Assembly: GCA_937959395.1 (NCBI GenBank)
Contig: CALGLR010000090.1
Location: forward strand, 1-57,897
From: an uncultured Flavobacteriaceae bacterium
GTDB taxonomy: Bacteria; Bacteroidota; Bacteroidia; Flavobacteriales; Flavobacteriaceae
Direction of reading: 5' to 3'
DNA: 57,897 nucleotides
The position numbers and the translations under genes are program-made. The notes under the pieces were generated by a model. The model did not search any database. It saw only the letters and a program-made list of their open reading frames with translations, and was not told the origin of the DNA. Below, piece after piece: positions 21,901 through 47,100 of this stretch. How positions within the stretch are numbered: position 1 is the stretch's first letter; each line of letters begins with the position of its first letter.

Positions 21901-23172
21901 ATGAAAACCTTAATCTATTCTCAAAAAAATAAATCGATTACTTTTTTTTATTTTTTACTTGTATTTTTAATTGTAAATATTACTTTTTCTCAAAATAACA
22001 CCGAATTTAAAGGTGTTATTATAGATCGTGAGACTAAGGACAAATTACAGTTTGTAGATGTTATCGTAGAAGAGGCTAATATTAGTACTGTTACTAATTC
22101 TGAAGGAGAATTTTTAATAAAAGTACCTAATGACATGCTAAATAAAATTGTGACTTTCTCTCATTTAGGATACACTAAACAAAGTATGCTTGTTTCTAAA
22201 TTAAATAATACTAATAATGTAATAAAGTTAGATGAAGCCGCAACCATATTAGCACAAGTCGATCTTAATTTTCCAAAAAATGCAGAGAAATTAATACGAA
22301 AAGTACTTAGTAAAAAAGGAGAAAATTATAATACGAATCAATCTACTTTAACTGCTTTTTATAGAGAAACCATTAAAAAACGAAATAAAAACGCGTCTCT
22401 TTCTGAAGCTATAGTCGAAATTGAAAAAGCAGGCTATAACGATTCTAAAAAAGATGGAATAAAACTTATAAAAGCTAGAAAAAACACAAATTATTCGAGA
22501 CTTGACACCTTAGCTTTAAAATTACAAGGTGGTCCTTTTAGTACACTTTATACAGATTTAATGAAAAATCCTGAATTTATTTTTGATGAGAATAATTTAT
22601 CCAAGTATACTTTTAAGTTTGACAAGTCTACGCAAATAAATAATAAACTAGTTTATGTGGTTAATTTTAAACAAAAGAAAGAAGAAACAAATCCGCTCTA
22701 TTATGGTAAATTATATATAGATGCAGAAAGTTATGCGCTTACAAGTGCTGTATATAATTTAAATATTAGCAATAGAAATTTAGCGAGTGCCTATTTTGTT
22801 AGAAAAAAACCTAAAAAGGTAAAAGTTTATCCTACTAATGCAGCTTATCGTGTAAACTATAGAACGTTAAATAGTAAATGGTATTACAGCTACAGTAATA
22901 TACAACTCGCTTTTAAAGTGAATTGGAAAAACAAACTATTTAATAGCCGATATACACTTCAAAGCGAAATGGCCATTACCGACTGGCAACAAAGTGATAT
23001 AGGTAAGCTATCAAAAGCAAAAAGAACATTACACCCTTCTACTATTTTAGCAAATGAAGCTTCTGGTTTTTCAGACCCAAAGTTTTGGGGTGAATACAAT
23101 ATTATAGAGCCTGAGAAATCAATCGAATCGGCAATTAAAAAAATAAGCAAACAGTTTAAAAAAACGAGTTAA
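21901..23172 (+). CDS. Exported carboxypeptidase-regulatory-like domain protein
   Basis: 423 residues: signal peptide (about 1-30, ending ITFSQ), a CarboxypepD_reg-like beta sandwich (about 36-108: FKGVIIDRETKDKLQFVDV ... TNSEGEFLIKVP), and a roughly 300-residue C-terminal region of the kind found in TonB-dependent-receptor-associated flavobacterial envelope proteins. Function unknown; probably periplasmic or outer-membrane associated. Its stop is one base from the stop of the convergent rimO fragment at 23174. That tight convergence suggests that this was the original 3' neighbour of rimO. Confidence 0.8.
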   Translation: MKTLIYSQKNKSITFFYFLLVFLIVNITFSQNNTEFKGVIIDRETKDKLQFVDVIVEEANISTVTNSEGEFLIKVPNDMLNKIVTFSHLGYTKQSMLVSKLNNTNNVIKLDEAATILAQVDLNFPKNAEKLIRKVLSKKGENYNTNQSTLTAFYRETIKKRNKNASLSEAIVEIEKAGYNDSKKDGIKLIKARKNTNYSRLDTLALKLQGGPFSTLYTDLMKNPEFIFDENNLSKYTFKFDKSTQINNKLVYVVNFKQKKEETNPLYYGKLYIDAESYALTSAVYNLNISNRNLASAYFVRKKPKKVKVYPTNAAYRVNYRTLNSKWYYSYSNIQLAFKVNWKNKLFNSRYTLQSEMAITDWQQSDIGKLSKAKRTLHPSTILANEASGFSDPKFWGEYNIIEPEKSIESAIKKISKQFKKTS

Positions 23173-23173
23173 C

Positions 23174-23467
23174 TTATTTTAAAACTTCTGCATACAAATC
23201 AAAGTCTTCTGCTTCAGTAATCTTTACAGTAGTAAACTCACCTGTTTTTACATATGTTTTTGTTGCATCTATTAAGACTTCATTATCTACATCTGGCGAA
23301 TCAAATTCTGTACGACCAACAAAATAGTTCCCTTCTTTTCTATCGATAATGACTTTAAGTTCTTGTCCTATTTTCTCTTGATTTAATTCCCAAGAAATTT
23401 GCGATTGAATTTCCATAATTTCATTCGCACGATTCTGCTTCACTTCTTGAGGCACATTATCTACCAA
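23174..23467 (-). pseudogene. rimO: Displaced 3' fragment of rimO
   Basis: 97 codons, beginning at a TTG, match residues 338-433 of the intact RimO encoded at 26087-27388. The amino acids agree except at about four internal sites (for example VDN for VDD, NQEK for NQGK, IGQE for IGEE) and the extreme C-terminus (YAEVLK versus YGEVV). By hand count about 17 of roughly 285 bases differ, mostly at silent positions. Similarity stops at 23467-23468, about seven bases before a transposon-type hairpin, and does not extend beyond the stop codon. It holds only the TRAM-domain region, so it cannot act as a methylthiotransferase. It may be the original end of rimO pushed away by an insertion. Confidence 0.9.
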
Positions 23468-23474
23468 AATGAAC

Positions 23475-25762: not shown

Positions 25763-26086
25763 AAGAATTTATTTAAAATTAACTTTATAAGACAAATATT
25801 TTACACAAAAAACTTAATATATAAAAAAATTTGAAATATAAAACTATTTTATATATGAACTACAATACAAAACTCACGGGGTGTATAATTCATCATATTA
25901 AAGCATTACTTATCTATTAATCTTATTCTGGAATCTTTTTATTAGACTTGGCTCGTTTTCTAATACTAAAAACTATACTAATTATAAGCTCTAAGCAATT
26001 ATTAATCTTTGTATCGTCTCGGTAATAAATAAGAACAAAAGCTTATACAATATGAGTTGGAGGTAAATACTATTTACGTTTTAGAA
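25763..26086. other. Intergenic gap between the DUF3472 gene and rimO
   Basis: 324 A+T-rich bases without a credible gene or strong hairpin. It should hold the promoter of the DUF3472 gene and the 3' end of the rimO transcript. A stretch TACTATTTAC...TAGAATT at 26069-26089 weakly resembles one arm of the MITE-like repeat at 10397-10580. Confidence 0.4.
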
Positions 26087-27388
26087 TTACACAACTTCTC
26101 CATACAAGTCAAAGTCTTCTGCTTCAGTGATCTTTACAGTTGTAAACTCTCCTGTTTTTACATATGTTTTTGTTGCATCTATTAAGACCTCATTATCTAC
26201 ATCTGGAGAATCAAATTCTGTACGACCAACAAAATAGTTTCCTTCTTTTCTATCTATAATGACTTTAAGCTCTTCTCCTATTTTACCTTGATTTAATTCC
26301 CAAGAAATTTGCGATTGAATCTCCATAATTTCATTTGCACGATTCTGCTTCACTTCTTGAGGTACATCATCTACCAAATTAAAGGCATGTGTGTTTTCTT
26401 CATGAGAATAAGTAAAGCAACCCAAGCGTTCAAAACGCATCTCTTTTACCCATTCTTTTAGGACTTGATAGTCTTCTTCAGTTTCTCCTGGATAACCCAC
26501 GATAAGTGTTGTACGAATGGTCATATTTGGAACTGTTGCTCTAAACTCCTTAAGCAACTTCGTCGTTTTCTCTTTTGTTGTACCACGACGCATACTCTTT
26601 AAAATAGAATCTGAAATATGCTGTAATGGAATATCCATATAATTACAAATCTTTGGTTCTCGATTCATAATTTCTAATACATCCATAGGAAATCCTGTAG
26701 GGAAAGCATAATGTAAACGGATCCATTCAATTCCTTCAACCTTAACCAGATTCTCTAACAATTCTGCTAGATTTCTTTTTTTGTATAAATCTAAACCGTA
26801 ATACGTTAAATCTTGAGCAATAAGAATAAGTTCTTTAACACCGTTAGCTGCTAATTTCTCAGCTTCAGTTACTAAATGTTCTATAGGCGTAGATTTATGT
26901 TTTCCTCGCATTAAAGGAATCGCACAAAATGAACAAGGTCGATCACAACCTTCGGCGATTTTTAAATAGGCATAATTTTTAGGAGTCGTTGTTAATCGCT
27001 CACCAATTAATTCATGTCTATAATCTGCTCCTAAAGCTTTTAATAGACTGGGTAATTCTGTAGTTCCAAAATATTGATCAACATTAGGAATTTCTTTCTG
27101 TAAGTCTGGCTTATAACGTTCACTTAAACATCCCGTTACAAACACTTTATCAACTTCTCCTTCTTCTTTCTTCTGCATGAACTCTAAAATAGTATTCACG
27201 CTTTCTTCTTTCGCATTTTTAATGAACCCACAAGTATTAATAACGACAATATTCCCTTCTTCTTCATGAACAACATCTTTACCACTTGCTTTTAACTGCC
27301 CCATTAGCACTTCGCTATCGTAAACATTTTTACTACAACCCAATGTTATAACATTGATTTTGTTCTTTTTAAGTGATTTTGTTCTCAT
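26087..27388 (-). CDS. rimO: Ribosomal protein S12 methylthiotransferase RimO
   Basis: 433 residues, full length. The N-terminal UPF0004 domain carries the auxiliary-cluster cysteines 18 (TLGCSKN), 53 (NTCGFI) and 87 (VTGCLSE). The radical-SAM domain has C148-x3-C152-x2-C155 (EGCDRPCSFCAI), and a TRAM domain covers about 370-433. It adds a methylthio group to the conserved Asp of ribosomal protein S12. Residues 338-433 are duplicated in the fragment at 23174-23467. The 3' end in the present gene may be imported while the fragment is the original (inference). Rows of ftsY-rimO are usual in flavobacteria; here two extra genes lie between them. Confidence 0.96.
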   Translation of the reverse strand: MRTKSLKKNKINVITLGCSKNVYDSEVLMGQLKASGKDVVHEEEGNIVVINTCGFIKNAKEESVNTILEFMQKKEEGEVDKVFVTGCLSERYKPDLQKEIPNVDQYFGTTELPSLLKALGADYRHELIGERLTTTPKNYAYLKIAEGCDRPCSFCAIPLMRGKHKSTPIEHLVTEAEKLAANGVKELILIAQDLTYYGLDLYKKRNLAELLENLVKVEGIEWIRLHYAFPTGFPMDVLEIMNREPKICNYMDIPLQHISDSILKSMRRGTTKEKTTKLLKEFRATVPNMTIRTTLIVGYPGETEEDYQVLKEWVKEMRFERLGCFTYSHEENTHAFNLVDDVPQEVKQNRANEIMEIQSQISWELNQGKIGEELKVIIDRKEGNYFVGRTEFDSPDVDNEVLIDATKTYVKTGEFTTVKITEAEDFDLYGEVV

Positions 27389-37809: not shown

Positions 37810-38904
37810 TTAAAAAGTTATAATCTCTCCTTTATTTTTTGATGAATTACTTCCGATGATAAAATTAGAGTTTTTTGGAAGAATTTTAAATGTTGTGCCC
37901 TTATTTTTTTCTGATGTTGATATTATAGCTATAATTCTTTTAAAGGACAAGTAATTAGCATCTAAAATATATTCTGTTTTTTGTTTTAATACTGAAACCT
38001 CTTCAACAGCTTTAATGGTTTCTATTTTTTGTCTCAAACCCGGATACTCTTTATTTGAAACTAAAATAAAGTTAACAGGATGTTCTGTTTTTTCTAAATT
38101 ATCGTTCTTAAATACCTTTGCTCCTTGAATCCCCAGATACATTAAGGTATCAAAAAACAAGTTTTGTTTAAAATGTTTTTTATAGAAAATTTGCATGGCG
38201 CCATAAAAACGTTTGGCATAAGTAGCATCTTTAAGCGTACTTTCCCCTTTATAGTGTATTGCAGTAGATGTGCCAACATAATAATTTTGAAAGCCACTTT
38301 TTTCAATTTTAAATGATAAATCGATATCTTCTCCATACATGAAATAATCTTCATCAAAACCATTTACTTTATCATAAACTGCTTTTTTTAACAACATAAA
38401 AGCGCCTACAAAAATAGAGACTTTCCCAATTGCATTTTCATTTAGAGCATTTGCATAATAGTTTTTAGTATTTCCCATTGCTTTTTGAATTGCAATTTTA
38501 GGAATAGGAACATTTCGTTTACTCTCTGGTAAATATGAACCTTTACCATCTATAAGTTTACAACCAATAATCCCTAAATTTTCTTTTTTATTGGCAAAAT
38601 CTAAAAGCATTTCGAAAGTATCTTCTGCGACAACTGTATCTGGATTTAAAATACAAACGTAATGGCCTTTTGCTTGAGCAACTCCAATATTATTTCCTTT
38701 GGAAAACCCATAATTCTCACTGTTTTCTATTAATTTAACTTTAGGAAATTTTTGACGCACCATTTCACAGCTATTGTCTTGAGATAGATTGTCTACTACA
38801 ATAACTTCCGATTCTATATTTTTAATTGCAGCTTCTACACTTTGTAGACATAGCTCTAAAAAGTACGGTACTTTATAGTTTAATATGATAATAGATAATT
38901 TCAA
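37810..38904 (-). CDS. Family 2 glycosyltransferase
   Basis: 364 residues. GT-A fold with LSIIILNYKVPYFLELCL, a VIVVDNLSQDNS strand, the NPDT metal-site motif and GFDEDYFMYGEDIDLSFK near 200, as in rhamnosyltransferase-like envelope enzymes. The C-terminal 100 residues (after KVFKND) form a separate domain of unknown function. The frame has a TTG start eight bases after the recR stop, with a stop codon six codons further upstream in frame and no ATG, so TTG initiation coupled to recR translation is likely. Confidence 0.9.
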   Translation of the reverse strand: MKLSIIILNYKVPYFLELCLQSVEAAIKNIESEVIVVDNLSQDNSCEMVRQKFPKVKLIENSENYGFSKGNNIGVAQAKGHYVCILNPDTVVAEDTFEMLLDFANKKENLGIIGCKLIDGKGSYLPESKRNVPIPKIAIQKAMGNTKNYYANALNENAIGKVSIFVGAFMLLKKAVYDKVNGFDEDYFMYGEDIDLSFKIEKSGFQNYYVGTSTAIHYKGESTLKDATYAKRFYGAMQIFYKKHFKQNLFFDTLMYLGIQGAKVFKNDNLEKTEHPVNFILVSNKEYPGLRQKIETIKAVEEVSVLKQKTEYILDANYLSFKRIIAIISTSEKNKGTTFKILPKNSNFIIGSNSSKNKGEIITF

Positions 38905-38911
38905 AAATAGT

Positions 38912-39529
38912 TTACAATTTTAAAGAAGATTCAAATGGAATTCTATTTATAATACTTCTGCCTAGTGTAATTTCATCTGCATATTCTAACTCATCCCCTA
39001 CCGAAATTCCACGAGCAATAGTAGAAGTTTGTACTTTATAACCTTGAATTTGTTTAAAAATATAGAAATTCGTGGTATCCCCTTCCATAGTAGAACTTAA
39101 AGCAAATATGAGTTCTTTTACTTTACCTTCTTTTACTTTTTCAACAAGAGTCGTAACATTTAAATCATGAGGTCCAATACCATCCATTGGTGAAATTTTC
39201 CCTCCTAAAACATGATATAATCCTTTGTGAGAAGCGGTGTTTTCAATAGCCATTACATCTCTAACATCTTCAACTACACAAATAACGTCTTCTTTTCTAT
39301 TGGGATTACTACATATTTCGCACAACTCTAAATCGCTAATATTATGACATGATTTACAAAACTTAATAGCTTCTCGCATAGTTTTTAATGCATCAGAAAG
39401 CCCTACTGTTTGTTCTTTAGGTTGTTTTAATAAATGTAAGACTAAACGTAAAGCGGTTCGCCTACCAATTCCAGGTAATTGCGATACTTCGTTTACTGCT
39501 CGCTCTAAAAGTTTTGAAGAAAATTCCAT
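38912..39529 (-). CDS. recR: Recombination protein RecR
   Basis: 205 residues from the ATG at 39529 ([20 protein letters not shown]); an upstream in-frame codon would add nine atypical residues. It has a helix-hairpin-helix ([12 protein letters not shown]), a four-cysteine zinc finger (Cys58, 61, 70, 73) and a TOPRIM domain ([15 protein letters not shown]). It works with RecF/RecO to load RecA at gaps. Divergent from the symporter gene and upstream of the glycosyltransferase in the same transcript. Confidence 0.97.
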
Positions 39530-39612
39530 TATTGCGAATTTAATATTTATTATCAACTTGTTTGATAATCTCTTAAAGTAATTCGTATTTTGCTATCTAG
39601 AAACAATTACAC

Positions 39613-41106
39613 ATGACGGCTACACAAATACTGCTTTTAATTGCTGCCTATTTTGGCGTACTTATTTTAATCTCCTATTTTACTGGAAAAGAAGATTCTA
39701 ATGCTTCTTTTTTTAGTGGTGAAAAAAGCTCCCCGTGGTACGTCGTCGCTTTTGGAATGGTAGGCGCTTCTTTATCTGGAGTTACTTTTATTTCTGTTCC
39801 AGGATGGGTCGAAGGTGCCAAATTCGGGTATATGCAAGTTGTTTTTGGGTATTTGGTTGGGTATTTTGTTATTGCCTATGTTTTAATGCCTATCTATTAT
39901 AGATTAAATGTCACCTCCATATATCAATATCTTGAAAACCGTTTTGGTGTCGTGAGTTATAAAACTGGTGCTTTTTTCTTTTTTATATCTCGTATTTTAG
40001 GCGCTTCTTTTCGTCTTTACTTAGTTGCCATAGTATTACAAAAATTTGTCTTTAATGATTTAGGTGTTCCATTTTTTGTAACCGTTGTGTTGTCTATTCT
40101 GCTTATATGGCTATATACATTTAGAGGCGGAATAAAAACTATTGTTTGGACTGATACCTTGCAAACCTTGTTTATGCTTATTGCAGTATTTGTTGCTATA
40201 ATTTTAATTACGAACAAGTTAGATTGGAGTGTTTCTGAATTTCTAGCCTCAAACGAGTTAACTAATTATAATAAAATATTTTTCACAGATTCTTTTTTAG
40301 ATAAAGGCCACTTTATAAAATCATTTCTAGGAGGACTCTTTATAGCTATTTGCATGACTGGGTTAGACCAGGATATGATGCAGAAAAACCTAACATGTAA
40401 AACATTAAAAGATGCTCAAAAAAACATGGTAACTTTTAGTATTGTATTGGTTGCCGTTAATTTTGTTTTCCTTTTGTTAGGTGCTCTTTTATACATTTAT
40501 GCAGAAAAATATAATATTACAATTCCTCTTTTAGATGGAAAAGTAAAAACAGATTTACTATTTCCTGAAATAGCACTTAATGGTGGTTTAAGTATAAGCT
40601 TAGCTATTGTTTTTCTTCTAGGCTTAATTGCTGCGGCTTATAGTAGTGCAGATTCGGCATTAACTTCGCTCACCACTTCTTTTTGTATCGATTTTTTAGG
40701 TATCGAAAAACGTCCTGTAGAAGAGCAAAAAGGGTTACGAAAAAAGACTCATATTTTTATGAGTATAGTTTTAGTAATTGTTATTGTTATTTTTAAATAC
40801 ATACTAGACAGTAGTGTTATTGACAATTTACTCAAAGTAGCTGGTTACACATATGGGCCTTTACTTGGTTTATTTGCCTTTGGAATTATTACAAAACGCA
40901 AAATCCAAGATAAGTACTCTTGGATTGTAGCTCTAGTTGCTGTTACCGCCTCTTATCTTATAGGAACTATCCCTAAAGAAAGTATTGGCGGCTACGTTAT
41001 TGGCTATGAATTATTAATAATTAATGGATTTCTAACCTTTTTAGGATTGTTACTCATTTCTAGTAAAACACAAAAACCTGAAGAATTAAATGGAGCTTTA
41101 TATTAA
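39613..41106 (+). CDS. Sodium:solute symporter family protein
   Basis: 497 residues with about 13 hydrophobic helices and the SSS-family pattern ([20 protein letters not shown] near the start, [10 protein letters not shown] and [18 protein letters not shown]). It is an inner-membrane Na+-driven uptake system; the substrate is not predictable. Divergent from recR with an 83-base spacer. Confidence 0.92.
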
Positions 41107-41144
41107 TTTTATGAAGACACCTCTATCTATACTTACCAATAAAT

Positions 41145-41507
41145 CTAATATTGATTAGTTCCTAGTAAAACTAATGTACAGGCGACTTCATAATCTATGC
41201 TGTGCTCTTTTAAGATGCTATATAATTCAGGATTTTCTGTTCCTGGATTAAAAATAACGCGTTTGGGCTTTAATGAAACGATATAATCATAGTACTCTTT
41301 TTGTCGTTGCGGATTAAGATATAAAGTTACAGTATTTAAATCTTCATATTGTTTTAGTTCAGTATCAATTACAACGTTTTCTACTGTACCTTCTCTTAAT
41401 CCAAAAGCAACAGTATCATGCTTATACTTTGTTAATCTATGTATAGCTTTATTAGAATAACGCTCTGGTTTTAATGAGGCTCCAATTACTAGTGTTTTTT
41501 TATTCAT
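41145..41507 (-). CDS. CoA-binding domain protein
   Basis: 120 residues from the ATG at 41507 (MNKKTLVIGASLKPERYSN); the open frame adds ten residues upstream that do not fit the family. It is a single Rossmann-like CoA-binding domain (YccU-like) with NPGTENPELYSIL. The molecular role is unknown. Convergent with the symporter gene, 38 bases between stops. Confidence 0.85.
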   Translation of the reverse strand: MNKKTLVIGASLKPERYSNKAIHRLTKYKHDTVAFGLREGTVENVVIDTELKQYEDLNTVTLYLNPQRQKEYYDYIVSLKPKRVIFNPGTENPELYSILKEHSIDYEVACTLVLLGTNQY

Positions 41508-42021
41508 TATGTTAAATATTATTAAAATTTGTAACAATTTATAACTATGCGCGTCTTAAAAAGAGAGATAAGATACAAAATTAAAGATAAGATAACATTT
41601 AATAGAGAAACATATTATAGTTAATGGTTAGTGTTAATGTAGACCTATTAAATTAAGAAAATCCAAGGCAGACATGTCTTGGGTTTTCATTATGTTATTT
41701 TACTAAAAAAATAAACACGCAATGTTAAAAAAAGGTTAAGTGTTTTATTATCAGAACAATAAAAACAAAACCATACGTTAATATAATAAACTGCTTAAAC
41801 GAAAATTATTTGAATTAGTCTTCTACTATAAAAGTCGTAAAAAGTTATGTTTATAAAAGAAAAACCGAAACAATGTTTCGGTTTTTCTGCTTTCCATACT
41901 AAAATATTTTTATATGTTAAAAAAATATAAAACACTGAATATCAAAACTAAACAGTCTTTTCTTTCGTAAATTATGTAATATAAAACACTTCTCACATTA
42001 ATTAATTTAAAGATTAAAACA
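41508..42021. other. Intergenic region upstream of the M57-type protease
   Basis: About 510 A+T-rich bases without a credible gene. It holds two hairpins: AAAATCCAAG / CTTGGGTTTT at 41658-41687 and a strong palindrome at 41859-41887 described separately. The promoter of the protease should lie between 41890 and 42020. Confidence 0.5.
41859..41887. repeat. Hairpin upstream of the M57-type protease, copy 1
   Basis: GAAAAACCGAAAC - AAT - GTTTCGGTTTTTC, a 13-base-pair stem with a three-base loop and T-rich tail. A second copy at 42909-42937 differs by one A-to-G in the left arm and the matching T-to-C in the right arm. It could act as a terminator in either direction. Confidence 0.85.
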
Positions 42022-42882
42022 ATGAAAAAAAATATTTTTTTTAAACTACTTGTATTAGTAGGAGTATTGAGCTTTACAGGGTGTCAAACAGAAGACACAG
42101 AAACGACAATAACCACTGAAGAATTTAGTATCGAAGATTCAGAAAATATCATTTCTGAAAAAATACTTAATAAACTTAAAGACTTTTATTTAAACCATAA
42201 TTACATCAAAAAAGTAACCCAAACTTATCCAGATGGCACTAGTTCTAATATGTATGAAGTTGAAGGAGACATTATGATGTCTGAAAAGCAAATTATGAAT
42301 TTAGATATTGGTGGTGGCATCACTACACGTCAATATCAAACAAACAATTTAGTGAATCAGGGCATGCGAATTCGGGTTCTTGGTTGGACAGGTAGTGGAT
42401 TAGCACTTAATAGTAATGCCAAAACGGCTTTAAATCGAGCTGTTCGTAATTTTAGGAACTTAGGCATTACATTTTCATTATCGTTTGGAACCAATCAAAA
42501 TAATGCAGATATTATAATTTATGATAACTCTAATGCTAGACCAGGTGCATCTGGTGGTAAAGCAGGATTCCCGCACAACGGAAGACCTCATAAATGGATT
42601 GAAATCTTTGGTTTAGGTACCAACGAACGTATTAATGAGCATGTAATAAGTCATGAAATTGGGCATGCAATTGGTTTACGACATTCGGATTGGTGGACTA
42701 GAGAGAGTTGTCCTACAGGTCAGCAAGGTAACGAAGGAACAGGATGGCAAGGCGCTATACATATTCCTGGAACGCCTACTGGTGTTGATCCCACATCCAC
42801 AATGAGAGCTTGTTTTGATAATAGTGTAACTGGTGAATTTAATCGAAACGACATTATCGCATTAGAGTTCTTATATCCATAA
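42022..42882 (+). CDS. M57-type (dual-action HEIGH) zinc metalloprotease lipoprotein
   Basis: 286 residues. The lipoprotein signal is MKKNIFFKLLVLVGVLSFTG followed by Cys21, and acidic residues follow it. The metzincin-like zinc site HEIGHAIGLRHSDW has ligands His211, His215 and His221 with catalytic Glu212. A PGTPTGVDPTSTMRAC segment downstream supplies the Met-turn region. This family is predicted to be secreted or surface proteases. It is intact, in contrast to the related decayed gene at 8563-9522. It is monocistronic between two near-identical hairpins. Confidence 0.9.
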   Translation: MKKNIFFKLLVLVGVLSFTGCQTEDTETTITTEEFSIEDSENIISEKILNKLKDFYLNHNYIKKVTQTYPDGTSSNMYEVEGDIMMSEKQIMNLDIGGGITTRQYQTNNLVNQGMRIRVLGWTGSGLALNSNAKTALNRAVRNFRNLGITFSLSFGTNQNNADIIIYDNSNARPGASGGKAGFPHNGRPHKWIEIFGLGTNERINEHVISHEIGHAIGLRHSDWWTRESCPTGQQGNEGTGWQGAIHIPGTPTGVDPTSTMRACFDNSVTGEFNRNDIIALEFLYP

Positions 42883-42908
42883 TAAAAAACCTCTAATAAC
42901 ATATTAAA

Positions 42909-42937
42909 GAAAAGCCGAAACAATGTTTCGGCTTTTC
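42909..42937. terminator. Bidirectional terminator hairpin, copy 2 of the flanking pair
   Basis: GAAAAGCCGAAAC - AAT - GTTTCGGCTTTTC, a perfect 13-base-pair stem, 26 bases past the protease stop and between convergent genes (fabH ends at 43030). It is the same structure as 41859-41887, offset by exactly 1050 bases. Confidence 0.88.
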
Positions 42938-43029
42938 TGTTTTTATTTAAGTAGTTGAAAATAAAATTATACGCAACGCTTTTTTTTTAATCTTACTCAG
43001 ATAAAGATTCCTTTTTTCAAAGGAATTTA

Positions 43030-44037
43030 TTACCACTTAATAATAGCGCTTCCCCAAGTAAATCCACTACCAAAAGCAGCTAAAACAACAGTATCTCCTT
43101 CTTTTATTTTTCCTTGTTCCCATGCTTCAGTTAAAGCAATTGGAATAGATGCAGCAGTCGTGTTTCCGTAATTTTGAATATTATTAAAAACCTGACTGTC
43201 TTCTAACTTAAATTTTTTCTGTATAAACTGTGAGATACGCAAGTTTGCTTGATGGGGGATTAACATGTCTATATCATCAACTTCTAATTTATTAGCTATT
43301 AAACCTTCCATTATAACTTCACTAAAACGCACTACTGCATTTTTAAAAACAAACTGACCATTCATATATGGGTAATAACTTTCATCATTTGGGTCATTAT
43401 CAGCTATAATATCACTAACCCATCGTTTCCCCATACCTGGAGCTACTAGAGATAATTCTTCAGCATGCTCACCTTCAGAGTGCAAATGCGTAGATAGAAT
43501 CCCTTTAGAAGGATCTTCTTCTCTAGTTAAAATTGCAGCTCCTGCTCCATCTCCAAAAATTACAGAAACACCACGTCCTCTGGTGGTTTTATCCAAACCG
43601 TGAGAATGTAATTCAGATCCTATTACTAAAACGTTCTTATACATTCCTGTTTTAATAAACTGATCTGCAACAGATATTCCATAAATAAAACCAGAACATT
43701 GGTTTCTAATATCTATGGCACCAACGGTCTTAATATCTAAAGCTTTTTGAACTTGTACACCAGGACCAGGAAAATACATGTCTGGACTTAAAGTAGCAAA
43801 TACAATAAAATCGATATCATCTTTATCTATACCAGCACGTTCTATAGCTTTTTTAGCTGCTTTTACTCCCATTGTAGAAGTGGTATCACCAGAATCTTTT
43901 ACCCAACGTCTTTCTCTTATACCGGTACGTTCTTGAATCCACTCGTCATTAGTATCCATCATTGTGGATAACTCCTCGTTGGTAACTACATTTTCAGGAA
44001 CATAATGTCCCAACCCTATTATCTTTGAATTATACAT
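43030..44037 (-). CDS. fabH: Beta-ketoacyl-ACP synthase III
   Basis: 335 residues. The catalytic triad is Cys114 (RNQCSGFIYG), His262 (PHQANLRI) and Asn292 (NYGNTTAASIP). It condenses acetyl- or branched acyl-CoA with malonyl-ACP to start fatty acid synthesis. The usual neighbours rpmF and plsX are absent, so this may be a second FabH-type copy; the gene elsewhere cannot be seen. It is monocistronic and divergent from htpG. Confidence 0.93.
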   Translation of the reverse strand: MYNSKIIGLGHYVPENVVTNEELSTMMDTNDEWIQERTGIRERRWVKDSGDTTSTMGVKAAKKAIERAGIDKDDIDFIVFATLSPDMYFPGPGVQVQKALDIKTVGAIDIRNQCSGFIYGISVADQFIKTGMYKNVLVIGSELHSHGLDKTTRGRGVSVIFGDGAGAAILTREEDPSKGILSTHLHSEGEHAEELSLVAPGMGKRWVSDIIADNDPNDESYYPYMNGQFVFKNAVVRFSEVIMEGLIANKLEVDDIDMLIPHQANLRISQFIQKKFKLEDSQVFNNIQNYGNTTAASIPIALTEAWEQGKIKEGDTVVLAAFGSGFTWGSAIIKW

Positions 44038-44128
44038 AACACTTTATTTCGCTACTCTTGGCGGTTAATTTTAGTGGCGCAATTTACTTATTTCAGTATT
44101 AGAATTCTGTTGAATATAACTTATTAAT

Positions 44129-44140
44129 TATGCATGCATA
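44129..44140. promoter_or_regulatory. 12-base perfect palindrome between fabH and htpG
   Basis: TATGCATGCATA is its own reverse complement and lies 92 bases upstream of the fabH ATG in the 338-base divergent spacer. It could be an operator, but no regulator is identified. Nothing else in 44038-44339 stands out. Confidence 0.3.
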
Positions 44141-44339
44141 GTAATCTGTTTTTTGTAAACTTCTTAATACAAACTATTAAACTTTAAAGCTCATTAACCT
44201 ACAATACTGAATTTCAACAACTAAATATCAAAAAATAATTAAATTCAAAAATTAATTCGTGTCACTTTGTCACTTTTACTCAATTGGCATTTTTGTTGAC
44301 TATTGTGTAAAAAGAAAGTTCAATTAAATTACAAACAGT

Positions 44340-44357
44340 TTCCCACTTTCGTGGGAA
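44340..44357 (+). promoter_or_regulatory. Hairpin in the htpG leader
   Basis: TTCCCAC-TTTC-GTGGGAA, a seven-base-pair stem ending 18 bases before the htpG ATG. It may be a dispersed palindrome or an RNA structure affecting htpG translation; it does not match the CIRCE element. Confidence 0.4.
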
Positions 44358-44375
44358 TATTTAATAAATTATAAT

Positions 44376-46286
44376 ATGGCAACAGGAAATATTAATGTTT
44401 CAGTAGAAAACATTTTCCCACTAATTAAAAAATTTCTATACAGTGATCACGAAATTTTTCTACGTGAACTTATTAGTAATGGTACAGATGCAACTCTTAA
44501 ACTAGGACACTTAACAAATATAGGTGAATCTAAATCTGAATTGGGTAGCCCAATTATCGAAGTGAAAATTGATAAAGAAGGCAAGAAACTGCATATTATA
44601 GATCAAGGTTTAGGAATGACTGCAGATGAAGTTGAAAAATACATTAACCAAGTAGCATTCTCTGGAGCTGAAGAGTTCTTAGATAAGTATAAAGATTCTG
44701 CTAAAGATTCTGGTATTATCGGTCACTTTGGTTTAGGGTTCTATTCTGCATTTATGGTTGCAGAAAAAGTAGAGATTCTTACAAAATCTCATAAAGATGA
44801 ACCAGCTGCTCATTGGACTTGTGATGGTTCTCCAGAATTTACTTTAGAAGAAAGCGATAGAACAGAAAGAGGAACAGAAATCATTCTTCATATAGCTGAA
44901 GATTCTTTAGAGTTTTTAGAAGAAACTAGAATTAGTAGTTTACTAGCTAAGTATAATAAATTTATGCCTATTCCAATTAAATTTGGAACTAAGGAAATAA
45001 ACGATCCTGAACATAAACCAGAAATAACTAAAGATAAAGACGGCAAGGAAACAACTGAACCTCATCGCAAAATAACGGTAGATAATATTATTAATAACCC
45101 TGTTCCTGCTTGGACAAAACAACCTGCAGATTTAAAAGACGAGGATTATAAAGGGTTTTACCGTGAATTATACCCAACTCAATTTGAGGAGCCTCTATTT
45201 AATATTCATTTAAATGTTGATTATCCATTTAATCTAACTGGTATTCTTTATTTCCCAAAGATGACCAATGATATGAATGCTCAAAAGGATAAAATTCAAC
45301 TGTACCAAAACCAAGTTTTTGTTACCGATAATGTTGAAGGTATTGTTCCTGAATTCCTTACCATGTTACGTGGTGTTATTGATTCTCCAGACATTCCTCT
45401 TAATGTTTCAAGATCTTACTTACAAGCTGATGGTGCAGTAAAGAAAATATCGTCTTACATTACTCGTAAAGTAGCCGATAAAATGAAATCGTTATTTAAT
45501 GAGAATCGCGAAGATTTTGAAGCGAAATGGAATGATATTAAAATCGTTATAGAATACGGTATGCTATCTGAAGAAAAATTCTTTGAAAAAGCAGATGCTT
45601 TCGCTTTATATCCAACGGTAGATGGTAAGTATTACACTTACGAAGAGCTTTTCAATAAAATTAAAGCAAACCAAACGGATAAAGACGGCAAGCTTGTCAT
45701 ATTATATACTTCTAATAAAGAAGAGCAACACAGTTATATTGAAGCAGCGAAAACAAAAGGTTATGAAGTTTTATTATTAGACTCTCCTATTATATCGCAT
45801 TTAATGCAAAAATTAGAAAGTACAAAAGAGAACATATCTTTTGCTCGTGTTGATGCCGATTCTATTGAGAAATTGATTAAAAAAGATGAAACTACTATTT
45901 CTAAGTTAGATGAAGGACAGACTAAAACTTTAGACGAATTATTAAAAGAAACAATTCCTTCTGAAAAATTCATGGTACAACTTGAGGCTTTAGATAGTAA
46001 TGCTTCACCTTTTATGATTACTCAACCAGAATTTATGCGTCGTATGAAAGAAATGCAAGCTTCTGGCGGCGGCGGTATGTTTGGAATGGGAAATATGCCA
46101 GAGATGTACAACTTAGTTGTAAATACTAACAACGAATTAATTACAGAAATACTTAATACCAAAACCAAGAAAAAACAAGAACGCTTAATCTCTCAAAGTT
46201 TAGATTTAGCACGTTTATCTCATGGTTTACTTAAAGGTGAAGAATTAACAAACTTTATTAAAAGAAGTTATGAAATGATTAAGTAG
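44376..46286 (+). CDS. htpG: Hsp90 chaperone HtpG
   Basis: 636 residues. The N-terminal GHKL ATPase has FLRELISNGTDA, DQGLGMTADEV and IGHFGLGFYSAFMVA. The middle domain has NVSRSYLQAD, and the dimerisation domain has a glycine/methionine-rich loop (GGGGMFGMGNMPEMYN) typical of Bacteroidota HtpG. It is an ATP-driven chaperone for late folding and stress. It has a hairpin in its leader and a terminator after the stop. Confidence 0.98.
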   Translation: MATGNINVSVENIFPLIKKFLYSDHEIFLRELISNGTDATLKLGHLTNIGESKSELGSPIIEVKIDKEGKKLHIIDQGLGMTADEVEKYINQVAFSGAEEFLDKYKDSAKDSGIIGHFGLGFYSAFMVAEKVEILTKSHKDEPAAHWTCDGSPEFTLEESDRTERGTEIILHIAEDSLEFLEETRISSLLAKYNKFMPIPIKFGTKEINDPEHKPEITKDKDGKETTEPHRKITVDNIINNPVPAWTKQPADLKDEDYKGFYRELYPTQFEEPLFNIHLNVDYPFNLTGILYFPKMTNDMNAQKDKIQLYQNQVFVTDNVEGIVPEFLTMLRGVIDSPDIPLNVSRSYLQADGAVKKISSYITRKVADKMKSLFNENREDFEAKWNDIKIVIEYGMLSEEKFFEKADAFALYPTVDGKYYTYEELFNKIKANQTDKDGKLVILYTSNKEEQHSYIEAAKTKGYEVLLLDSPIISHLMQKLESTKENISFARVDADSIEKLIKKDETTISKLDEGQTKTLDELLKETIPSEKFMVQLEALDSNASPFMITQPEFMRRMKEMQASGGGGMFGMGNMPEMYNLVVNTNNELITEILNTKTKKKQERLISQSLDLARLSHGLLKGEELTNFIKRSYEMIK

Positions 46287-46320
46287 GGAAGACCTGTATA
46301 ATATCAAATAAACTTATTTA

Positions 46321-46353
46321 AACCACTTTGTTAATGCAGAGTGGTTTTTTTTG
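46321..46353 (+). terminator. Terminator after htpG
   Basis: AAACCACT / AGTGGTTT with a 12-base loop and an eight-base T run, 34 bases past the stop. Confidence 0.85.
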
Positions 46354-46515
46354 TGTTCTAAAAAATTAAATGCTTTTAGAAAAATGAATGTTGTTAATCA
46401 TAAAATTTCATTTATGATTAAATTAGAGTTGTTTTTATTTAATTTGGTTAGTTTTGCACAAAACAAAATTGTATCTATTTTTAATTAACGTTATCCCATA
46501 CTATATTTTTATAAA

Positions 46516-47100
46516 ATGAACTCTTTTAACCCTATAGCTTCTCAAATTTTTAAAGGCATTTCTTTTACTGAAAGTGAATTAGAAATAATAAATAATAAAT
46601 TTAAAAAAACTGTTGTAAAAAAAGGAGAAATCATTTTAGAAGCTAATGAAATTGTAACCAATCAATACTATGTACAAAGTGGTTGTTTACGTTCTTTCTT
46701 TATAGATTCTCTAGGAAGAGAACACACCTTACAATTTGCAGTAAAAGACTGGTGGGCTAGTGATTTCACTGCTTATTTTGATAAATCTAGAGCCATACTA
46801 AATATTGAATGCATACAAGATGCTATTTTATTCAAACTCACTAAAAACGACATCGATTTTTTATTTAAAAACTTTCCCAGCATAGATAGTTTTGTTAGAA
46901 AAAAACTAGAAAAAGCCTATGCTAGTTTTCAAAAAAGAACCTTAGGTAATTTAGCCAAAACGGCTAAAGAAAGGTATTTAGATTTTATTAATACCTATCC
47001 AGATATTGAACAGAATATTAAAAACTACCACATTGCATCTTACTTAGGAGTAACAAAAGAAAGCCTTAGTAGAATTAGAAAAGAAATGGTAAAAAAATAA
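46516..47100 (+). CDS. Crp/Fnr family transcriptional regulator
   Basis: 194 residues: a cyclic-nucleotide-binding-type beta barrel (about 20-125, KKGEIILEANEIVTNQYYVQ) and a C-terminal helix-turn-helix (HIASYLGVTKESLSRIRKEM, 173-192). The barrel lacks a clear cAMP-binding RxAT motif, as in many Bacteroidota members of this group, so the ligand is unknown. It is a stand-alone gene and may control neighbours or distant targets. Confidence 0.88.
   Translation: MNSFNPIASQIFKGISFTESELEIINNKFKKTVVKKGEIILEANEIVTNQYYVQSGCLRSFFIDSLGREHTLQFAVKDWWASDFTAYFDKSRAILNIECIQDAILFKLTKNDIDFLFKNFPSIDSFVRKKLEKAYASFQKRTLGNLAKTAKERYLDFINTYPDIEQNIKNYHIASYLGVTKESLSRIRKEMVKK

Follow-up and report, generated by a model that had tools for sequence, protein, structure and literature searches.

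The window, a stretch of 57,897 nucleotides from an uncultured Flavobacteriaceae bacterium (assembly GCA_937959395.1, contig CALGLR010000090.1), carries in order an SSF transporter gene (+), a CoA_binding_2 protein gene (−), a hairpin (hairpin 1), an M57 metallopeptidase gene (+), a second hairpin (hairpin 2), fabH (−) and a further open reading frame (ORF; +), which we take, by eye, to be htpG. The CoA_binding_2 gene (41145..41507, − strand; PF13380, E 7e-20), which is syntenic in relatives, forms the left border of the interval of interest; the fabH-like gene for 3-oxoacyl-ACP synthase III (43030..44037, − strand; PF08541/PF08545) is convergent both with the metallopeptidase gene and with RNA-B, a candidate small RNA described below. 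The initial annotation had called the gene between the hairpins (42022..42882, + strand; 286 aa) a metalloprotease, and its product indeed matches PF12388 (M57, HEIGH metallopeptidase; E 5.1e-59) with 200 bits against a cut-off of 21; by eye, the translation contains the zinc motif HEIGHAIGLRH and a lipoprotein-like N terminus. NCBIfam gave no family for the protease, and a related-locus search of genome contigs with the protease as query returned no match. The same genome holds a second M57 metallopeptidase gene (G000:C26:10301-11062, L009), 55% identical and with an unrelated terminator. Two possible origins of the protease leader were rejected, namely a copy of the paralogue's leader (local alignment 24, equalled by 101 of 300 shuffles) and a copy of RNA-B (local alignment 25, equalled by 86 of 300). 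Other repeats are present in the window: the stretch at 43004-43045 after fabH, containing AGATTCCTTTTTTCAAAGGAATT, matches six other places in the genome (contigs C1, C91, C72, C52, C35, and C16) and is possibly a small repeated palindrome, and a 298-nt direct repeat (93% identical) lies at 23176-23473, just after ORF 21901-23172, and at 26086-26383, spanning the 3′ end of ORF 26087-27388 (−).

Hairpins 1 (41859..41887) and 2 (42909..42937), neither of which is assigned to one strand, have the sequences GAAAAACCGAAAC-AAT-GTTTCGGTTTTTC and GAAAAGCCGAAAC-AAT-GTTTCGGCTTTTC, respectively, each with 13 base pairs and a three-base loop, and they differ in a single pair, A41864-T41882 in hairpin 1 and G42914-C42932 in hairpin 2; the earlier description of two 13-bp hairpins with an AAT loop, 1050 bases apart and distinguished by one compensated A-T/G-C swap, is confirmed. 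Folded as RNA, they reach −16.1 kcal/mol (z −6.56) and −18.5 kcal/mol (z −6.44), and none of 200 shuffles folded as well as either. The hairpins lie within a 42-nt direct repeat found by repeat search (left copy 41852..41893, right copy 42902..42943, both on the + strand), the copies of which are spaced 1050 bases apart and agree at 38 of 42 positions (90%); two of the four differences are the two sides of the A-T/G-C change, i.e., one event. This pair is the longest and most alike among the direct repeats listed for 38000-46500, and its right copy opens with bases that correspond to the 3′ end of RNA-B. Searched with up to three mismatches, the 17-base core gave four matches in the window (two places, both strands) against 0.10 expected and, with up to two mismatches, occurs in the whole 4.3 Mb genome at these two places only, so the hairpin copies are very probably of common ancestry; the further copies, and other genes bracketed by the core, that the initial annotation had proposed to look for are absent from this genome.

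Both hairpins look like intrinsic terminators, each having a G+C-containing stem of at least five pairs and a T tract. Hairpin 2 was listed by a consensus terminator scan on the + strand only; hairpin 1 was absent from that list, its T's being partly within the stem, and its T tracts (TTTTTCTGCTTT on +, TTTTTCTTTT on −) were read by eye. A generic repeat of the form CCGAA-N3..14-TTCGG was considered and rejected: the pattern occurs at 13 places in the genome versus 36 for the reversed control pattern, and six of the 13 sites, hairpins 1 and 2 included, are good hairpins. The compensatory change had been taken to indicate selection on the hairpin; the change itself is correctly described and fits selection for pairing but, as a single event, falls short of proof; pairing would likewise be preserved if the change passed through a G-T intermediate or if one arm was copied from the other.

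The CoA_binding_2 gene and the protease gene diverge, and hairpin 1 is upstream of each, so no protein gene is seen to end there, which is a clue that something else does. The candidate is RNA-B (41786..41887, + strand, the 5′ end being approximate), a putative small RNA that would end in hairpin 1 and was recognized from a fabH-side motif, the terminator-like hairpin and its fold (z −5.43, terminator included). It contains a conserved block, TTTGAATTAGTCTTCTA, at 41809-41825 and a possible outer stem (41786-41791/41849-41854), for which the pairing signal is modest (14.6, compared with 12.9 ± 0.28 in shuffles and 13.4 ± 0.29 with swapped partners). The fabH locus set comprised 109 loci, or 95 once duplicates were removed, and in 54 of these 95 the conserved motif TTTGAATTAG[TC]C (at most one mismatch) is found downstream of fabH in convergent orientation, against a mean of 0.96 and a maximum of 6 in mononucleotide shuffles; when the seven loci fetched by the RNA-B motif itself are excluded, the motif is present in 47 of 88. 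The 41 loci that lack it in the 900 bases examined include the window's own row, because the protease pushes the motif out of that span. Across 397 genomes, the 17-base RNA-B motif with one mismatch occurs at 52 places, only about twice the 24 of the reversed control, so that the evidence for RNA-B rests on its place beside fabH; just 10 of 30 loci fetched by the genome-wide motif have fabH adjacent.

One or more terminator-like hairpins separate the RNA-B motif from fabH in 50 of the 51 loci in which the motif is within 500 bases of fabH (one hairpin in 37, two in nine, three in four), and in the remaining locus, L162, a hairpin after the motif was seen by eye. These counts come from a recount of all hairpins rather than of one chosen per locus; the first hairpin script had found a hairpin in 46 loci, in seven of which the chosen one was more than 150 bases past the motif. 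A strict ECF-type promoter motif precedes RNA-B in 17 of the 51 loci (0.37 expected from shuffles; the window is outside this count); it was not found in G001, a genome of the same genus. Hairpin 1 begins 38 bases past the 12-base RNA-B motif, and the corresponding distance in G001 is 39 bases, which makes hairpin 1, judged by position, the RNA-B terminator. A third conserved block, AGTGTTAGTTGAAGTTGATTAATAGC followed by a terminator, stands beside fabH at L019, L024, L034, L053, L015, L090, L130, L180, and others, its motif occurring in 14 of the 51 RNA-B loci; both it and the RNA-A element described next carry AGTGTTA, and to judge from the sequences it may be a sibling RNA of RNA-A.

RNA-A (41588..41691, + strand), a candidate structured small RNA, comprises an outer stem (41597-41605/41645-41653), a conserved loop around 41620-41636 and a terminator (41657-41688) that is included in the consensus terminator scan list; an ECF-sigma-type promoter-like site, TGTAAC-N16-CGTC, was read in the sequence at 41530..41555 (+ strand). 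Invariant bases around ATGGTTAGTGT lie inside a stem that varies on both sides between genomes and is followed by the terminator. Across 61 sequences, with the window's own pairing as the structure, 86.4% of cells are paired versus 75.3% in shuffles, which ignore relatedness, and 157 cells are changed on both sides versus 46.9; every measure drops when the partner is slid by one to three columns, and the outer stem alone is paired in 81.3% of cells. RNA-A covaries strongly, as expected of a conserved structure. The sequences derive from a scan of named genomes for the 17-base RNA-A loop, which gave at least 116 stretches; most titles among the 80 listed are Flavobacteriaceae (e.g., Winogradskyella, Aquimarina, Bizionia, Psychroserpens, and Aequorivita), and these 80 loci include a CoA_binding_2 gene in 56 fetched records, a stem of at least seven pairs in 73 and a strict ECF-type promoter motif before RNA-A in 23. 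Fifteen of the 80 were left out (seven in a hairpin-array context; seven, mostly from other taxa, in which an RNA-A stem and terminator were not recognized by eye; and L176, in which the stem is present but the record has no neighbor gene), and four more were dropped as short or duplicate, which left 61 references. Alignment A2 consists of these references minus L153 and L163, left out for little or no stem, plus the window and G001 (locus L011), and it therefore leans towards stem-bearing sequences. A covariance model (E up to 1e-4) detected RNA-A in 60 of the 100 Flavobacteriaceae genomes searched, some of which had supplied model sequences, and once in the organism's own genome; the window's RNA-A, itself one of the 61 model sequences, scored 75.3 bits (E 4.8e-13). 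The loop GTTGATGGTTAGTGTTA inside a GGGAAGGA stem, followed by GTTGAT..TTAATAGCAG-like blocks, was also seen at seven intergenic loci (L127, L133, L147, L149, L168, L175, and L184) in Dokdonia, Zunongwangia, Flagellimonas, Nonlabens, Leeuwenhoekiella, and others; at L127, L149, and L175 it precedes, by eye, a small cysteine-rich protein gene and has no Rfam match.

The nearest relative, G001, has the order SSF, CoA_binding_2, RNA-A, RNA-B, one hairpin, fabH, without the protease; its CoA_binding_2-fabH interval is 686 bases long, and the single like hairpin is found shortly before the fabH end. No match to the region was obtained from a third genome of the genus, the 81% complete G002. In the next genus compared, G016 and G269 each have one GCC-form terminator at this place, that of G269 with a AAACAATGTTT center, and the form of hairpin 2, GAAAAGCC...GGCTTTT, resembles the fabH-side terminators of G016, G269, L090, L159, and L180. 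Nine loci read by eye contain conserved non-coding blocks in the interval, ending in hairpins with T tracts. Among 72 distinct CoA_binding_2-fabH intervals, an M57 gene is present in that of the window and was not found in the other 71; 38 of the 72 hold another ORF of at least 789 aa, showing that genes are not generally absent from the interval. In a repeat scan of 45 of the 72 intervals (those of 600 to 4500 bases), the best 26-base repeat pair had one mismatch in the window, none in L031 and four to eight in the remaining intervals. The perfect repeat of L031 (the G012 interval) has its copies 474 bases apart and is accompanied by a pair of same-strand 134-aa ORFs, suggesting a tandem duplication.

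The account that we consider probable is that hairpin 1 is the terminator of RNA-B, that the M57 gene is a later arrival between RNA-B and fabH, and that hairpin 2 is the fabH-side terminator, related to hairpin 1 by copying. A small-RNA gene, RNA-B, together with the structured RNA-A, would lie between CoA_binding_2 and fabH in many Flavobacteriaceae; we infer that both RNAs are transcribed and that transcription terminates at the hairpins, hairpin 1 being the intrinsic terminator at which RNA-B would end. As to the order of events, the protease gene would have been gained between RNA-B and fabH in the organism's own lineage and, on the simplest account, the tail of RNA-B together with the local terminator would have been duplicated at that gain, giving rise to hairpin 2; in an alignment, the 3′ end of RNA-B with its hairpin matches hairpin 2 plus the bases immediately preceding it. 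Hairpin 2, as the fabH-side terminator, would now end the protease transcript too, and we propose that perfect pairing has been kept in both copies because each serves as a terminator. The most likely division of labor, judged from sequence and position, is that RNA-B transcription stops at hairpin 1 and so is kept out of the protease gene, while hairpin 2 ends the protease on one strand and fabH on the other. Intrinsic (Rho-independent) terminators between convergent genes combine a perfect stem, a short loop and a T tract with a position at gene ends, as here; unlike ordinary convergent-gene terminators, these two are nearly identical and flank a single gained gene. The earlier reading of matched terminators holds insofar as the hairpins are terminator-like and related and the gene appears to have been gained, but a designed bracketing is unsupported, since hairpin 1 corresponds by position to the terminator of the candidate RNA-B beside fabH in many protease-free genomes. 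That RNA-B regulates the protease is no more than a conjecture; pairing of RNA-A with the protease start was tried and rejected (equalled by 237 of 300 shuffles).

That the ancestor had just one terminator is uncertain, given that more than one hairpin (two or three) is present in 13 of the 51 loci. These loci often have a third block ending in a GAAAAGCC-type terminator (L090, L180), and hairpin 2 could therefore be older than the protease and have been converted: the ancestor would have had the RNA-B terminator and a fabH-side terminator at the end of a third small RNA, the protease would have taken the place of the third block, and the likeness of the two hairpins would have arisen by conversion. 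The nine loci with two hairpins and four with three between RNA-B and fabH, the third-block motif in 14 of 51 loci, and the resemblance of hairpin 2 in its fabric (GAAAAGCC...GGCTTTT) to fabH-side terminators, L180 having AGAAAAGCCGAAACAATGTTGTTTCGGCTTTTTT, would all be explained in this way. We nevertheless regard this history as unlikely, because G001, G016, and G269 each have a single hairpin there, which favors duplication at the gain over conversion, because the window contains no third block, and because in two-hairpin loci the members of the pair differ from each other. The initial annotation had also raised the possibility that the hairpins are recombination footprints of a mobile cassette, in which case the protease would have arrived with a hairpin as a discrete unit, integrated at a matching terminator and be able to be lost again. 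Such a unit, 1050 bases long and flanked by the 42-nt direct repeats, is absent from G001, where one hairpin stands between the same neighbors, which comes close to the comparison that the initial annotation had proposed; this empty site was found in that one genome, and M57 genes are sporadic (six of 60 genomes searched, counting the organism's own; two of the six matches are weak). A cassette is decidedly improbable all the same, in view of the lack of further core copies in the genome, the local RNA-B-like bases in the right repeat copy, and the absence of the hairpin from four M57 relatives examined (the own-genome paralogue among them), whose terminators are unrelated; nor was an integrase or transposase seen beside the protease among the eight ORFs of at least 80 aa in 38000-47000 (four named by Pfam, the rest by eye). 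The hairpin pair is thus not good evidence of a mobile cassette, and the hairpins look like ordinary terminators of related origin.

The other two alternatives concern the hairpins as they stand. RNA-B could be the leader of the protease mRNA, with hairpin 1 as an attenuator controlling read-through into the protease; strand and order are the same, 134 bases lie between hairpin 1 and the start codon, and the RNA-B/protease-leader duplex is predicted at −20.4 kcal/mol versus −14.9 kcal/mol in shuffles. However, 20 of 300 shuffles reach that energy, which is therefore not significant, and RNA-B occurs with its hairpin in many genomes without the protease, so there is very little likelihood of attenuation. 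Two unrelated generic terminators that are alike by chance are the least credible explanation: CCGAA..TTCGG hairpins are used singly elsewhere (about four further good ones among the 13 genome sites), but 38 of 42 bases agree here, flanks included, and the core is found at two places alone in 4.3 Mb, which makes common ancestry of the hairpins far more likely. Copying of the RNA-B terminator at the gain of the protease gene is the reading that we prefer.

Neither RNA-A nor RNA-B, in the window or in nine loci, matched Rfam at the gathering threshold, and all 22 permissive matches were below their gathering scores. 6S-Flavo (RF01685) and Flavo-1 (RF01705) are, like the candidates, flavobacterial RNAs, and both are structured, but in the organism's own genome they sit elsewhere (on C121, and on C1 and C31, respectively). 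To our knowledge, few small RNAs have been characterized in Flavobacteriaceae. One study of Flavobacterium psychrophilum reports that deletion of the rfp18 sRNA gene lowered two metalloprotease mRNAs and places Rfp11 among SM6 (CGT-box, ECF-type) promoters (PMC9723704). Rfp11 and Rfp18, compared here by description, are conserved intergenic flavobacterial RNAs (PMC9723704), as RNA-A and RNA-B would be. A tentative and somewhat doubtful extension is that RNA-A and RNA-B form a family-wide, ECF-sigma-driven sRNA pair that is undescribed in Rfam and in the literature searched, and that the protease, in this lineage, was captured directly downstream of one of the two along with a terminator copy and possibly came under its control, in the way that Rfp18 bears on proteases in F. 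psychrophilum.

The hairpin pair is a tidy example of a gained gene fitted between convergent transcripts with copied terminators. The more useful outcome is the conserved RNA candidates beside fabH that have no Rfam match, one of which is strongly structured; the pair points to a small-RNA locus common to many marine flavobacteria, and this conserved RNA locus behind the hairpins is the part worth following.
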